Positions 15,429-35,897 of a stretch of DNA of 64,000 nucleotides are shown piece by piece. The position numbers were made by a program, and so were the translations under genes. The notes under the pieces were generated by a model. That model was not told the origin of the DNA, ran no database searches, and saw nothing but the letters and a program-made list of their open reading frames with translations. Positions within the stretch are counted from its first letter, which is position 1. The number at the start of each line of letters is the position of its first letter. Source of the stretch: Nitrosotalea devaniterrae (lineage in GTDB: Archaea; Thermoproteota; Nitrososphaeria; Nitrososphaerales; Nitrosopumilaceae). Location: positions 1,356,451-1,420,450 of the forward strand of contig LN890280.1 of NCBI GenBank assembly GCA_900065925.1. The letters run 5' to 3'.

Positions 15429-16238
15429 ATGAGTCAAAAAGATCAGGCTGAAAAAACAATTTTAGAGGGAATAAGCTATGCTAAGCTTGAAAAGCACAAG
15501 GATGCAATATCATTTTTTGACACGGCACTAAAACAAGACCCAGAAAATGTAGATGCACTATACAACAAGGGAATGTCTCTTTTGAAGATGAAAAAAACCA
15601 AGGAAGCAATATCATGCTTTGAGAAAATAATTAGTCATGATCCCAATCACGTTGACGCACTAAATAATCTAGGAAACCATTATGCCGAATTGCAACAATT
15701 CCAAAAAGCACTAACATACTATGACAAGGCGCTGTCAAATGATCCCTGGTACATCCCCGCACTGTACAACAAGGGAATTGCAACAATTCGACTTGAAAGA
15801 TATGATGATGCACTAGACTGTTTGAATAAAGTTCTTGATAAGGAACCAGAAAACATGCAGACAGCATACTACAAAGGATTAGTCCTGGGCAAGCAAAAAA
15901 AACACGATGAGGCACTGCTATATCTTGACAAAATATTGGAAAAAGAGCCAGACAACAACGAGGCAGTATTTTACAAGGCAACTGAATTGTCAGAGCTTGG
16001 AAGGCATGAGGAAGCAATTGCAATTTTTGATAAAATATTAAAAGAGTTTCCAAAAAATGGCACAATAATTTATGCAAAGGCAAGAAGTAAGGCACTTCTT
16101 GGACAAAACGATGATGCTCTCATTCTTCTTGCGCAAGCAATATCTCATTATGGTAGAACCATAAAGAATTGGGCAGTCAAGGATTCTTCATTCGATAAGA
16201 TAAAAGGGGATCCAAGATTTAGAACAATAGTGAAGTAA
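15429..16238 (+). CDS. Tetratricopeptide-repeat protein
   Basis: 269 aa made of about seven consecutive TPR units from residue 8 to 240. Examples are ALYNKGMSLLKMKKTKEAIS, ALNNLGNHYAELQQFQKALT, ALYNKGIATIRLERYDDALD and AVFYKATELSELGRHEEAIA, each with the W/L-G-Y-A-P spacing. There is no signal peptide or catalytic domain; it is a protein-protein interaction scaffold. It is followed after one base by the small gene at 16240, and the tubulin-like gene comes next, so it may belong to the same functional group. Confidence 0.9.
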   Translation: MSQKDQAEKTILEGISYAKLEKHKDAISFFDTALKQDPENVDALYNKGMSLLKMKKTKEAISCFEKIISHDPNHVDALNNLGNHYAELQQFQKALTYYDKALSNDPWYIPALYNKGIATIRLERYDDALDCLNKVLDKEPENMQTAYYKGLVLGKQKKHDEALLYLDKILEKEPDNNEAVFYKATELSELGRHEEAIAIFDKILKEFPKNGTIIYAKARSKALLGQNDDALILLAQAISHYGRTIKNWAVKDSSFDKIKGDPRFRTIVK

Positions 16239-16239
16239 A

Positions 16240-16539
16240 ATGTCAGAAGATATGATAAAGACGGTCAGGGGATTGCTATCAGCTGGTAGAGGAAACGCAA
16301 AGAGATTACGAGAAATAATTGAGACTGTAAAAAGTGGCGAACCAATTGTTATGTCAGATTACAGATACATCCAGAATTTACTAGAATCTCCTAATGCAAC
16401 AGATGTAGAACAGGCCCAGTCAATCCCACAGCCCAAAAGAGATACATCACTTGAAGTTCTCAGGGTAAGACTTGCAGAGGGACAGATTTCAATTGAAGAG
16501 TTCAGAGTACTCAAAAAAGCTCTGACAAATGAAGAATAA
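16240..16539 (+). CDS. Small protein with shared N-terminal module and SHOCT-like tail
   Basis: 99 aa. Residues 1-50 (GNAKRLREIIETVKSGEPIV, then YRYIQNLLES) match the N-terminus of the membrane-anchored protein at 2527 position by position. After a short linker, residues 68-98 (SLEVLRVRLAEGQISIEEFR, then VLKKAL) form a SHOCT-like helical hairpin, a motif often involved in oligomer contacts. It is soluble and probably translated together with the TPR gene, whose stop is two bases before. Function unknown. Confidence 0.72.
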   Translation: MSEDMIKTVRGLLSAGRGNAKRLREIIETVKSGEPIVMSDYRYIQNLLESPNATDVEQAQSIPQPKRDTSLEVLRVRLAEGQISIEEFRVLKKALTNEE

Positions 16540-16686: not shown

Positions 16687-18075
16687 TTGTCAAAGTTTGC
16701 TCCATTACCACCAGCGCCAGTTATCATGACATGTTTTGGTCATTGCGGAATTGGTCTTGGTGCTGAAACATATCGAAGATTATTGCTTGATGTTGGAGCA
16801 GATCCACTAAAGCCAACATTAAAGGGAGAAAAAGACGAGTCCCGTATACTAAAACGATATGGAAGTACCATCTTGCGTTTTCCAAATGCTTATGGTGGAA
16901 ACGAGATTCCACTTATTCCAAGAGCACTCTTAATTGATCTTGATCCAAGAGCTGCCAATTTAATATTACAATCATATCCAGACTTGTTTGCACTAAGAGA
17001 CAAGCATGTCATTTCAGGTGCTGGAGGTGCCGCAAGAAACTGGGCAGAGGGACGTACAAGATTCATCAAAGAAGTCAGTACAAAGTATGACATGCAAAAA
17101 CAACTTGCAAGTCTATCCCCAGAACCAGTAAGAGGTTTCACAATTCCATTTGCAATGGGTGGAGGTACAGGTGCTTCTTTTGCAAGTGCGTTTATGCAGT
17201 ATATCAAAAAAGATACTAAAGAACATGCAACAATTGCATCATTTGGATTATTGCCAGAGTTTGGATGGGATCCAGTAATTTTAGAAGCATCTGCAATTAA
17301 TATTGTAATGAATCTTGAACACCAGATAAAATACAGTGACTGTTCAATTTTATTTTCAAATAAAAGACTAAGAGAGCTTGCACAAAGACATGAAAAGAGA
17401 CTAGACAAAATGTCTTCAATTATCGATGACCTTCCAAAAGAACACGAAGTAGGATGGAAGGATTACAGAGGAATGAATCTAATTGCGGCAAATGCAATGT
17501 CCATGTTTACTGCATCATTTGCAAGAGAAACAGAATGGGATATGTCAAACTATAGAACGTGGCTTGCAACAAAGAGACCAAGATTTGCAGTTCCATGGGT
17601 TATTCCAATTGTTCCAGAAGAAAGACAGTGGAGTTCTGACTTGATGACAAGTACAAAGCACAATACAATGGAAGGAATCGTAGAGCACATCAACAAGAAA
17701 GAAGACGGTATATTGTTTGATATTGATGAAAATGACATACGAGACAAGGGCGGTCCAAAAGATTCATGCTGTGCGCTAGTCAAAGTAAAAGGAGATTTCG
17801 AAGCAAAAGAAAGAGACATTCTAAAGAACATGATTAAGGACAGATTCCACATCGAGGACGCAAGAATGATCTTCATCAAGATTCCAATATTAGAGACAGA
17901 GCAAGCAAACGTTACAGTGCTTGTCAACACCAAAGCAATTGGACCAAAGATCTTGGAGATTGCAAGCGAAGCAGAAGCTTCATGGGATGCATTCAAAGAC
18001 GAATATGGCAAGTGGGGATTGTCCACTGAAGAATTCAAGGCAAGCCTTATGGACGTAGTCCATGAGTTTAGCTAG
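16687..18075 (+). CDS. Tubulin-superfamily GTPase resembling eukaryotic tubulin
   Basis: 462 aa (tubulins are about 450), TTG start. Tubulin loops appear in order: GHCGIGLGAETYRRL (18-32; tubulin GQCGNQIG), IPRALLIDLDP (77-87; PRAVLVDLEP), GAGGAARNWAEG (111-122; AGNNWAKG), the signature GGGTGAS (158-164; GGGTGSG), and a T5/nucleotide region with Asn225. The P-R-A-x-L-x-D-L-D/E-P and N-W-A-x-G motifs are shared with tubulin rather than FtsZ. In the T7 region Asp285 is kept but the position of the catalytic Glu of alpha-tubulin seems to be Asn288. Thaumarchaeal artubulins are known, and this may be one or a sister family. It is expected to polymerise with GTP. It is coupled to the coiled-coil gene at 18078. 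Confidence 0.85.
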   Translation: MSKFAPLPPAPVIMTCFGHCGIGLGAETYRRLLLDVGADPLKPTLKGEKDESRILKRYGSTILRFPNAYGGNEIPLIPRALLIDLDPRAANLILQSYPDLFALRDKHVISGAGGAARNWAEGRTRFIKEVSTKYDMQKQLASLSPEPVRGFTIPFAMGGGTGASFASAFMQYIKKDTKEHATIASFGLLPEFGWDPVILEASAINIVMNLEHQIKYSDCSILFSNKRLRELAQRHEKRLDKMSSIIDDLPKEHEVGWKDYRGMNLIAANAMSMFTASFARETEWDMSNYRTWLATKRPRFAVPWVIPIVPEERQWSSDLMTSTKHNTMEGIVEHINKKEDGILFDIDENDIRDKGGPKDSCCALVKVKGDFEAKERDILKNMIKDRFHIEDARMIFIKIPILETEQANVTVLVNTKAIGPKILEIASEAEASWDAFKDEYGKWGLSTEEFKASLMDVVHEFS

Positions 18076-18077
18076 AA

Positions 18078-18623
18078 ATGTCTGACTTTGCCTTTCTAGA
18101 GCAGGTTGCAACCCGTATTAGAGAAAACAGGACGCAGTTAAAAGATACAGAAGATGAGCTTGCAACAGTAAATTTTAGAATTCATGAAATTCCGCTCAAG
18201 AGTCCAACAGAATCAACATTTGCAAAAATGATTGGTCAGGATTATTACGATGCATCAGTGGACCTTGAAAAAGCAAGAGAGAAACTTGTTGCACTAAAAG
18301 AAGAACTCACCGTAAAAGTAAAAGAAGACATTGCGTTATTTATAACAGAATTTACATCACATGAACTTGTCATTCCGCTAGAACCAAACCCAAAGGTTGC
18401 AGAAGGCAATACCATTTTCCACTACAAAAATAATACAACTTTTAACAACATACTTGCAATACTAGGTGAGCTTTTAGGACTCTCCCCTCCAATACTTGTC
18501 AAGGATGTAATGTTTTCTGCATCAGAGATAGTCATCAAGGTAACAGACGAGTATGAAGCCAAACAAAAATTCCTAAGCAGTATAAACGAAGTTCAAAAGA
18601 CTCTATCAATCAAGAGAAAGTAA
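18078..18623 (+). CDS. Coiled-coil protein coupled to the tubulin-like gene
   Basis: 181 aa; its ATG is two bases after the tubulin-like stop, so the two are surely co-transcribed. Residues 5-40 and 60-105 have strong heptad character (TRIRENRTQLKDTEDELATV, then DLEKAREKLVALKEELTVKV). Residues 110-181 form a small alpha/beta domain (FNNILAILGELLGLSPPILV, then VMFSASEIVIKVTDEYEAKQ). There is no membrane segment. No family is recognised. Position and form suggest a filament-associated or regulatory partner of the GTPase; that is inference. Confidence 0.75.
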   Translation: MSDFAFLEQVATRIRENRTQLKDTEDELATVNFRIHEIPLKSPTESTFAKMIGQDYYDASVDLEKAREKLVALKEELTVKVKEDIALFITEFTSHELVIPLEPNPKVAEGNTIFHYKNNTTFNNILAILGELLGLSPPILVKDVMFSASEIVIKVTDEYEAKQKFLSSINEVQKTLSIKRK

Positions 18624-34943: not shown

Positions 34944-35897
34944 ATGGAATTTCAGATGAAAGATCCAGTTTTAATTATCGGTTTAGGCGGTGCAGGATGC
35001 AAACTTGCCATTAACATCAAGGAGAAACTAGGCTATGACTGTCTCCTAGTAAGCCATGATGCAAGAGATCTCAATCATGAGACCTCAAAGATTTTGATAA
35101 ATACAAGTCCTGTCTTGAATCCCTCTGCATATCTCATAAGAGGTGTCTCATTTGGTGCAAGAGACTCCATTGAAGAGAAGATGAACGGATATTCCACTAT
35201 AATGGTTATTGCCAATCTGGCAGGAAAGTCAGGTGCTGCTCTTGCTCCAGTTGTGTCTCAAATAGGTAAAGAATCAGGAAAAAGTGTACTCTCCTTTGGA
35301 ATCATGCCATTCAAGTTTGAAAAAGACAGAATATTCTTCTCAGGAGTATCCTTGAAGAGACTAAAGACAAATTCAGATTGTACTGTAATAATAGACAATG
35401 ATGCATTGCTTGAGAGCAATCCAGACCTTACTCCAGATGCATGCAATGTCATAACAAACTCGGCCTTGCTACACGTGATATCTACTCTCAAGAACTCCAC
35501 ATTGCCACTTGAAACCAGCATACTTTCAACCAGCAAGGATATTTCAGATGTAGAGACCTCCCTTAGAGATTCAATCAAGATGTTATACGAAGATGCAGCA
35601 CCAAGCAGTATCAAGAGTGCATTGATGTACGTAGTAGGCGGAAACAAGGTCCCAGTAGGAGTTTTGAATTCAATGGTAAATACAATAAGTGGAATTTTCG
35701 GAGATGATAGTACACGAGTCAGCATGTCAGTTACAGCCGGTGACAACTCCAAAGTTGTATTGCTTACTTCAGTTGAAGGAGAGACACGTTTTGACAGATA
35801 TGACCCACTTGGTTTCATACCAAAGGAAAATGTGCTTGACTGGGATGAGCCAGATGCAAGTGTAAAGATTGATCTGAATTTAGATCAGATAGAATAA
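34944..35897 (+). CDS. Divergent FtsZ-family protein with degenerate GTP loop
   Basis: 317 aa. The opening PVLIIGLGGAGCKLAINIKE matches the first FtsZ nucleotide loop. MPFKFEKDRIFFSGVSLKRL and DCTVIIDNDALLESNP match the FtsZ core (PFxFEG-x-R..., NDxLL). However, the tubulin/FtsZ signature loop GGGTGTG is replaced by NLAGKSGAAL (91-100), and the T7 catalytic N-x-D loop is not recognisable. Thaumarchaeal FtsZ proteins are known to be altered in this way while cell division uses Cdv/ESCRT proteins. It may bind partners without hydrolysing GTP. No C-terminal FtsA-binding peptide is seen. Confidence 0.85.
   Translation: MEFQMKDPVLIIGLGGAGCKLAINIKEKLGYDCLLVSHDARDLNHETSKILINTSPVLNPSAYLIRGVSFGARDSIEEKMNGYSTIMVIANLAGKSGAALAPVVSQIGKESGKSVLSFGIMPFKFEKDRIFFSGVSLKRLKTNSDCTVIIDNDALLESNPDLTPDACNVITNSALLHVISTLKNSTLPLETSILSTSKDISDVETSLRDSIKMLYEDAAPSSIKSALMYVVGGNKVPVGVLNSMVNTISGIFGDDSTRVSMSVTAGDNSKVVLLTSVEGETRFDRYDPLGFIPKENVLDWDEPDASVKIDLNLDQIE

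Follow-up and report, generated by a model that had tools for sequence, protein, structure and literature searches.

The gene at 16687-18075 of the window, by which we mean the whole stretch of 64,000 nucleotides analyzed here, encodes an artubulin, a GTPase of the tubulin branch and not a CetZ or an FtsZ. It is probable that this artubulin and the coiled-coil protein encoded directly downstream form one functional module, in which a single filament protein dependent on GTP would be served by a binding factor of its own. The tubulin family concerned is a known one; what is new is the strict two-gene module, the decay of the partner gene after artubulin loss, the apparent swap within the catalytic T7 loop and a wider range of occurrence. 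Passages of four papers (PMC3349469, PMC3835317, PMC9871819, PMC13394414) and literature searches gave no mention of a strict two-gene module, of partner decay, of swapped T7 residues or of this wider range, and the literature found reports, as far as those passages go, no known artubulin function.

The locus and its GTPase

The window is part of the single-contig 1.8 Mb genome of a soil ammonia-oxidizing archaeon. Families and genera are labeled below with f- and g-numbers, f1 being the window's own family, and the genomes compared are mostly draft assemblies. A sequence-only reading of this DNA had placed here two open reading frames of 462 and 181 amino acids, two bases apart, and had pointed out four motifs in the first of them; both frames are confirmed, as are the motifs PRALLIDLDP (residues 78-87), RNWAEG (117-122), GHCGIG (18-23) and GGGTGAS (158-164). 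The locus has the following features:

16687-18075, plus strand: artubulin, a tubulin-like GTPase of 462 amino acids with a TTG start (Pfam Tubulin and PDB matches, orthologues, tree)
16735-16755, plus strand: nucleotide-binding T1 loop of artubulin, FGHCGIG, residues 17-23 (at least 90% conserved in the artubulin alignment)
16918-16947, plus strand: T3 region of artubulin, PRALLIDLDP, residues 78-87, tubulin-type (alignment with tubulins)
17158-17178, plus strand: T4 tubulin signature of artubulin, GGGTGAS, residues 158-164 (sequence and alignments)
17527-17562, plus strand: catalytic T7 loop of artubulin, ETEWDMSNYRTW, residues 281-292, with E283-x-D285-x-x-N288 (alignments of f1, f4, f5 and f9)
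18046-18072, plus strand: conserved C-terminus of artubulin, LMDVVHEFS, residues 454-462 (family f1 alignment)
18078-18623, plus strand: partner protein of 181 amino acids with an ATG start (AlphaFold2 fold, co-occurrence with artubulin)

Only two bases separate the artubulin stop from the partner start on the same strand, and purifying selection acts on each of them, with dN/dS values of 0.01-0.05 (artubulin) and 0.06-0.11 (partner). The T3 segment aligns with PRA-DLEP of alpha-, beta- and gamma-tubulin and differs in FtsZ and CetZ. The C-terminus LMDVVHEFS, which is near-invariant in f1 and diverged in f4 and f9, has no acidic tail.

Similarity searches of the GTPase returned a Pfam Tubulin match (E 2e-16) covering residues 13-232 only, with neither FtsZ_C nor Tubulin_C recognized by Pfam, and no NCBIfam match at E<=1, FtsZ models included. 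Among PDB sequences the best matches were the Asgard tubulins AtubA/AtubB (1e-16), followed by alpha-, gamma- and beta-tubulin. An artubulin HMM scored 55.5 bits against gamma-, 49.3 against beta- and 45.1 against alpha-tubulin, compared with 8.6 against CetZ1 and about zero against thaumarchaeal FtsZ. In a maximum likelihood tree of 22 rows with long branches, built without Asgard tubulin and TubZ, artubulins join alpha/beta/gamma-tubulin with a support of 100/99, and trees constrained to place them with CetZ or with FtsZ were rejected (p-AU 0.0013 and 0.0014, respectively). The human alpha-, beta- and gamma-tubulin sequences used were identical to PDB chains, Haloferax CetZ1 was the PDB version, CetZ2 was taken from a PDB alignment and E. 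coli FtsZ entered as an unverified sequence. The earlier proposal of a tubulin-like protein outside CetZ and FtsZ is thus upheld by the HMM scores, the tree and the p-AU values of about 0.001. Larger published trees put artubulin on a very long branch, at the base of or inside the eukaryotic tubulins, and leave its placement unresolved (PMC13394414, PMC9871819).

The artubulin family was published in 2012 (Yutin and Koonin, PMC3349469). Orthology of the present protein to the published Nitrosoarchaeum proteins follows from 75-77% identity to the genes of genus g11 and from the g11 neighborhood, in which a putative Snf7, a dCMP deaminase and a DNA polymerase (names assigned by inspection) reproduce the published Nitrosoarchaeum arrangement, g11 being equated with Nitrosoarchaeum by this synteny. 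Because the two neighborhoods match, the name artubulin, as those authors use it, applies to this GTPase. The window also holds a second gene of the tubulin superfamily, at 34944-35897, for a thaumarchaeal FtsZ-like protein of 317 amino acids in which a degenerate nucleotide signature, NLAGKSGAA, replaces GGGTGTG.

In tubulins and FtsZ, the T7 loop triggers hydrolysis of the neighbor's GTP. This loop reads N249-x-D251-x-x-E254 in alpha-tubulin and N207-x-D209-x-x-D212 in FtsZ, and E283-x-D285-x-x-N288 is invariant in all full-length artubulins aligned from f1, f4, f5 and f9. When the sequences, not the structures, are aligned on the shared Asp, Asn288 falls opposite alpha-tubulin Glu254 and FtsZ Asp212. 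Artubulin therefore has no acid at the E254 position, unlike the microtubule-forming tubulins, in which one subunit has it. The sequence-only reading was right that Asn288 occupies the position of the alpha-tubulin Glu, and the residue proves invariant; what has to be refined is the meaning of this change, since a Glu at position 283 accompanies Asn288, so that the acid may still be there at another position. Judged from the alignment, the combination suggests a swap of acid and amide rather than a simple loss.

Range, pairing and loss of the two genes

Of the 250 f1 genomes, 72 have an artubulin orthologue; they represent 9 of the 22 genera, and identity is 74-100% over near-full length. A profile search of 400 genomes of the class detected artubulins in three further families (20 genomes), with an identity to the window protein of 52-60% for f4 and f9 and of 77-78% for f5, and a phylum-wide sample of 398 genomes gave artubulin matches in f1 only. 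Within the samples searched, artubulins are limited to one order. The gene is chromosomal in the single-contig genomes G000, G002, G059, G060, G214, G216 and G222; no match was found in the 72,556 plasmid records scanned or in the viral contig scans. Two artubulins each were seen in G298 and in G071 (5% contamination), every copy with an adjoining partner, and the two pairs of G298, a member of f5, are diverged and lie on separate contigs (L129 and L130).

The downstream partner, intact or cut by a contig end, is present in the same 72 of the 250 f1 genomes as artubulin. Beyond these, a single-sequence search of f1 yielded one extra match only, a scar in G035, and a profile search added a second remnant in G062. 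Outside f1, all 20 artubulin genomes (f4, f5 and f9) have the partner directly downstream. The gap between the genes is 2-16 bases in the loci measured, and in three f1 genomes (G036, G193, G219) they are found on separate contigs, with artubulin reaching or nearing the contig end. The suggestion of a genuine partnership with the coiled-coil gene was accordingly substantiated, as the survey of relatives recovered this gene in every artubulin genome and encountered no artubulin without it. A mirror-tree correlation of artubulin and partner (r 0.97) was set aside, because shared descent alone predicts such a value.

Flanking genes vary across genera and families, and the pair alone is constant. 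Three neighbors were considered as further members of the module and discarded: a putative Snf7/CdvB gene, which lies upstream of artubulin in g11 only (no Snf7-type gene adjoins the window artubulin); the upstream TPR gene (15429-16238), which is kept in G035 after artubulin loss and is non-adjacent in most other genera; and a small SHOCT-like gene, which is not conserved. The last of these, at 16240-16539, immediately precedes artubulin in g1, g18, g19 and g10 only, and a gene with a similar start lies upstream in divergent orientation in g2 and g15.

In three lineages in which artubulin is deleted or missing, the partner is a pseudogene or a 40-codon scar. Comparison of G035 (99% complete) with locus L031 reveals a single deletion that begins where the TPR gene ends and stretches into the partner, of which the last 40 codons remain, with stops; the FtsZ-like gene is retained in this genome. 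In G062, a genome 97% complete, artubulin has been cut out between flanks that still align on either side, and what is left of the partner is fragments with a stop. The third case is a 4.3 kb contig of G330 with no artubulin in the 1.7 kb upstream and a partner carrying two adjacent stops and a frameshift. Across the artubulin-bearing families, every intact partner found had an artubulin, or some part of one, with it, except at contig ends, namely in G359 and in G418, where the artubulin C-terminus is visible.

In two genomes artubulin lacks the GTPase half alone. A 1.3 kb deletion in G190 removes artubulin residues 1-294 and leaves a short overlap at the joint (L097, 3820-3846), of a type typical of repeat-mediated deletion. 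Unrelated sequence lies upstream of about artubulin residue 229 in G185, where the truncation point is at about 10100-10125 of L096 (minus strand). Both retain the C-terminal part of artubulin and an intact partner, with dN/dS of 0.02-0.07. The truncations could be lesions of recent date or artefacts of assembly, or could mark a form that survives without its GTPase half.

AlphaFold2 models the partner alone with a pLDDT of 90.6, predicting a coiled-coil hairpin at residues 4-92 (helices 4-37 and 59-92) and a C-terminal domain (about 96-181) of beta-beta-alpha-beta-beta-beta-alpha order. Within f1, few partner segments are as well conserved as the tip of the hairpin, IPLK..TE.TFAKM.G. The partner had no match in Pfam, NCBIfam or PDB sequences, a fold search of PDB and viral libraries returned nothing below E 0.001, and no DNA-binding domain, nor any known domain at all, was recognized in it. 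A resemblance of the end domain to Pcc1, a KEOPS subunit, was dismissed at an hhalign probability of 2.5%; true Pcc1 genes, one or two, lie elsewhere in the genomes carrying the partner. The window genome has two Pcc1-family genes (G000:C1:353701-353919 and 1536864-1537055), as do most of its f1 relatives searched.

Partner homologs also occur where artubulin does not. Family f2 has a long form and family f3 a short form of about 130 amino acids without the hairpin, and the f2 and f3 genomes tested have, respectively, a distant FtsZ-like gene only, and other FtsZ-type genes or none. Several f3 genomes (L115-L123) have the short form between putative Rpp21 (RNase P) and Nep1 (rRNA methyltransferase) genes, named by inspection, a position which suggests a different role there. 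An f3 profile searched against the window genome matched the artubulin partner only (E 5e-20), and the Rpp21-Nep1 slot of that genome is empty. Since f2 and f3 retain the partner although they have no artubulin, its family is older or wider than artubulin, and the tie to artubulin is lineage-specific but strict where it exists.

What the pair may do

Established for the module are its tubulin affinity, the strict pairing within varied neighborhoods, partner decay after loss, the motif swap and purifying selection. On the interpretation that we favor, artubulin would bind GTP and form protofilaments of a single subunit, a composition assumed because a genome normally has, apart from its degenerate FtsZ-like gene, a single gene of tubulin type. 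The acid of T7 would have left the position of E254/D212 for that of N249/N207, with turnover altered and probably slow, and the partner, made from the same operon, would bind artubulin or its filament through the coiled-coil hairpin, the end domain or both and control filament stability, bundling or attachment. Because whole lineages have lost artubulin, the system appears to be a dispensable accessory, and a role in cell shape, intracellular organization or some conditional function seems likelier than that of an essential division machine, which in Nitrosopumilus maritimus is Cdv, as published. It can also be entertained, tentatively, that the pair constitutes a distinct tubulin cytoskeleton, with a single-subunit filament, a rearranged E-x-D-x-x-N motif and a co-inherited associated protein that would be an analogue of microtubule-associated proteins of independent origin.

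Several observations count against a single module. In f2 and f3 the partner occurs without artubulin, so it may bind some other protein and be tied to artubulin only secondarily, an intact partner stands beside GTPase-less artubulin in G185 and G190, and operon pairing can also be explained by shared regulation. A fused two-protein AlphaFold model (an in-frame stop read through in L086) is poor, with a pLDDT of 53 and a pTM of 0.34; it is unusable for the interface and gives contact no support. Shared regulation is the core of one competing account, in which the partner has an older role of its own and artubulin merely adjoins it, co-regulated without direct contact. Partner genes without artubulin in f2 and f3, with the f3 copy between Rpp21 and Nep1, would fit this account, which we nevertheless regard as unlikely, given that in f1 and f9 the loss of artubulin is followed by decay of the partner to a pseudogene and that no intact partner in f1 is without at least part of artubulin. 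The same decay, the directly coupled gene and the hairpin coiled coil would suit a chaperone that serves the folding or assembly of artubulin specifically, comparable to tubulin cofactors or prefoldin and not a filament component; this too is an unlikely alternative, as the partner matches no chaperone in sequence or fold and is retained in f2 and f3 without the client.

A link with ESCRT-III/Cdv division machinery, as put forward by Yutin and Koonin (2012), would reduce the coiled-coil gene to a lesser accessory. Its attraction is the putative Snf7 gene directly upstream of artubulin in g11, yet this neighbor is confined to that single genus, unrelated genes adjoin artubulin in the other genera and families, the N. 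uzonensis gene as described also has no Snf7 neighbor (PMC3835317), and the constant neighbor is the coiled-coil gene, so that we hold such a link to be improbable. Least credible is a role in segregating DNA or plasmids after the manner of TubZ/TubR/TubY, with an artubulin filament and an adaptor: the layout of a GTPase gene followed by a coiled-coil gene recalls it, but the chromosomal position in closed genomes, the negative plasmid and viral scans and the absence of a recognized DNA-binding domain in the partner make it very improbable.

Since 2012 the literature has named artubulins as possibly related to the ancestor of eukaryotic tubulin, and the constant partner offers a handle on them, as a bait, as a co-expression partner and through natural loss mutants. 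The f4 and f9 proteins, at 52-60% identity, could help to shorten the long branch behind the unresolved position in tubulin trees, and the swapped T7 motif provides a two-residue test of tubulin rewiring.

Comparison with known systems

The closest systems are the artubulins of Nitrosoarchaeum and Nitrosotenuis, which belong to the same family, with 75-80% identity to g11 and g16 over near-full length and tubulin-type T3 and T4 regions. The Nitrosoarchaeum gene differs from that of the window in having a Snf7 neighbor, a reported association that does not define artubulins, and a figure legend of the 2012 paper mentions an unnamed 'conserved hypothetical protein' that could be the partner (PMC3349469). 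Coiled-coil neighbors have been noted for archaeal tubulin-like genes in general, with Snf7 the only one named for artubulin in the text concerned, and OdinTubulin likewise has coiled-coil neighbors, reported to be without homologues elsewhere (PMC9871819).

TubZ/TubR/TubY systems place a tubulin-like GTPase beside a small coiled-coil regulator. They are borne on plasmids or phages, whereas artubulin did not occur among the plasmids and viruses scanned. CetZ and FtsZ share the superfamily and the GTP-binding fold with artubulin, and it is the grouping with them that is rejected.

The Prosthecobacter BtubA/BtubB genes, together with bacterial kinesin light chain, make up a prokaryotic tubulin operon that also encodes a repeat protein (PMC3349469); the TPR gene of the window, in contrast, is outside the artubulin module. 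Asgard AtubA/AtubB, the best PDB matches, are a two-gene pair, compared with the single subunit and coiled-coil partner of artubulin, and eukaryotic-like microtubules have been reported for Asgard tubulins (PMC13394414). The microtubule-forming tubulins (alpha/beta, AtubA/B, BtubA/B) all employ two subunits, whereas the window genome encodes one artubulin and one FtsZ-like protein.
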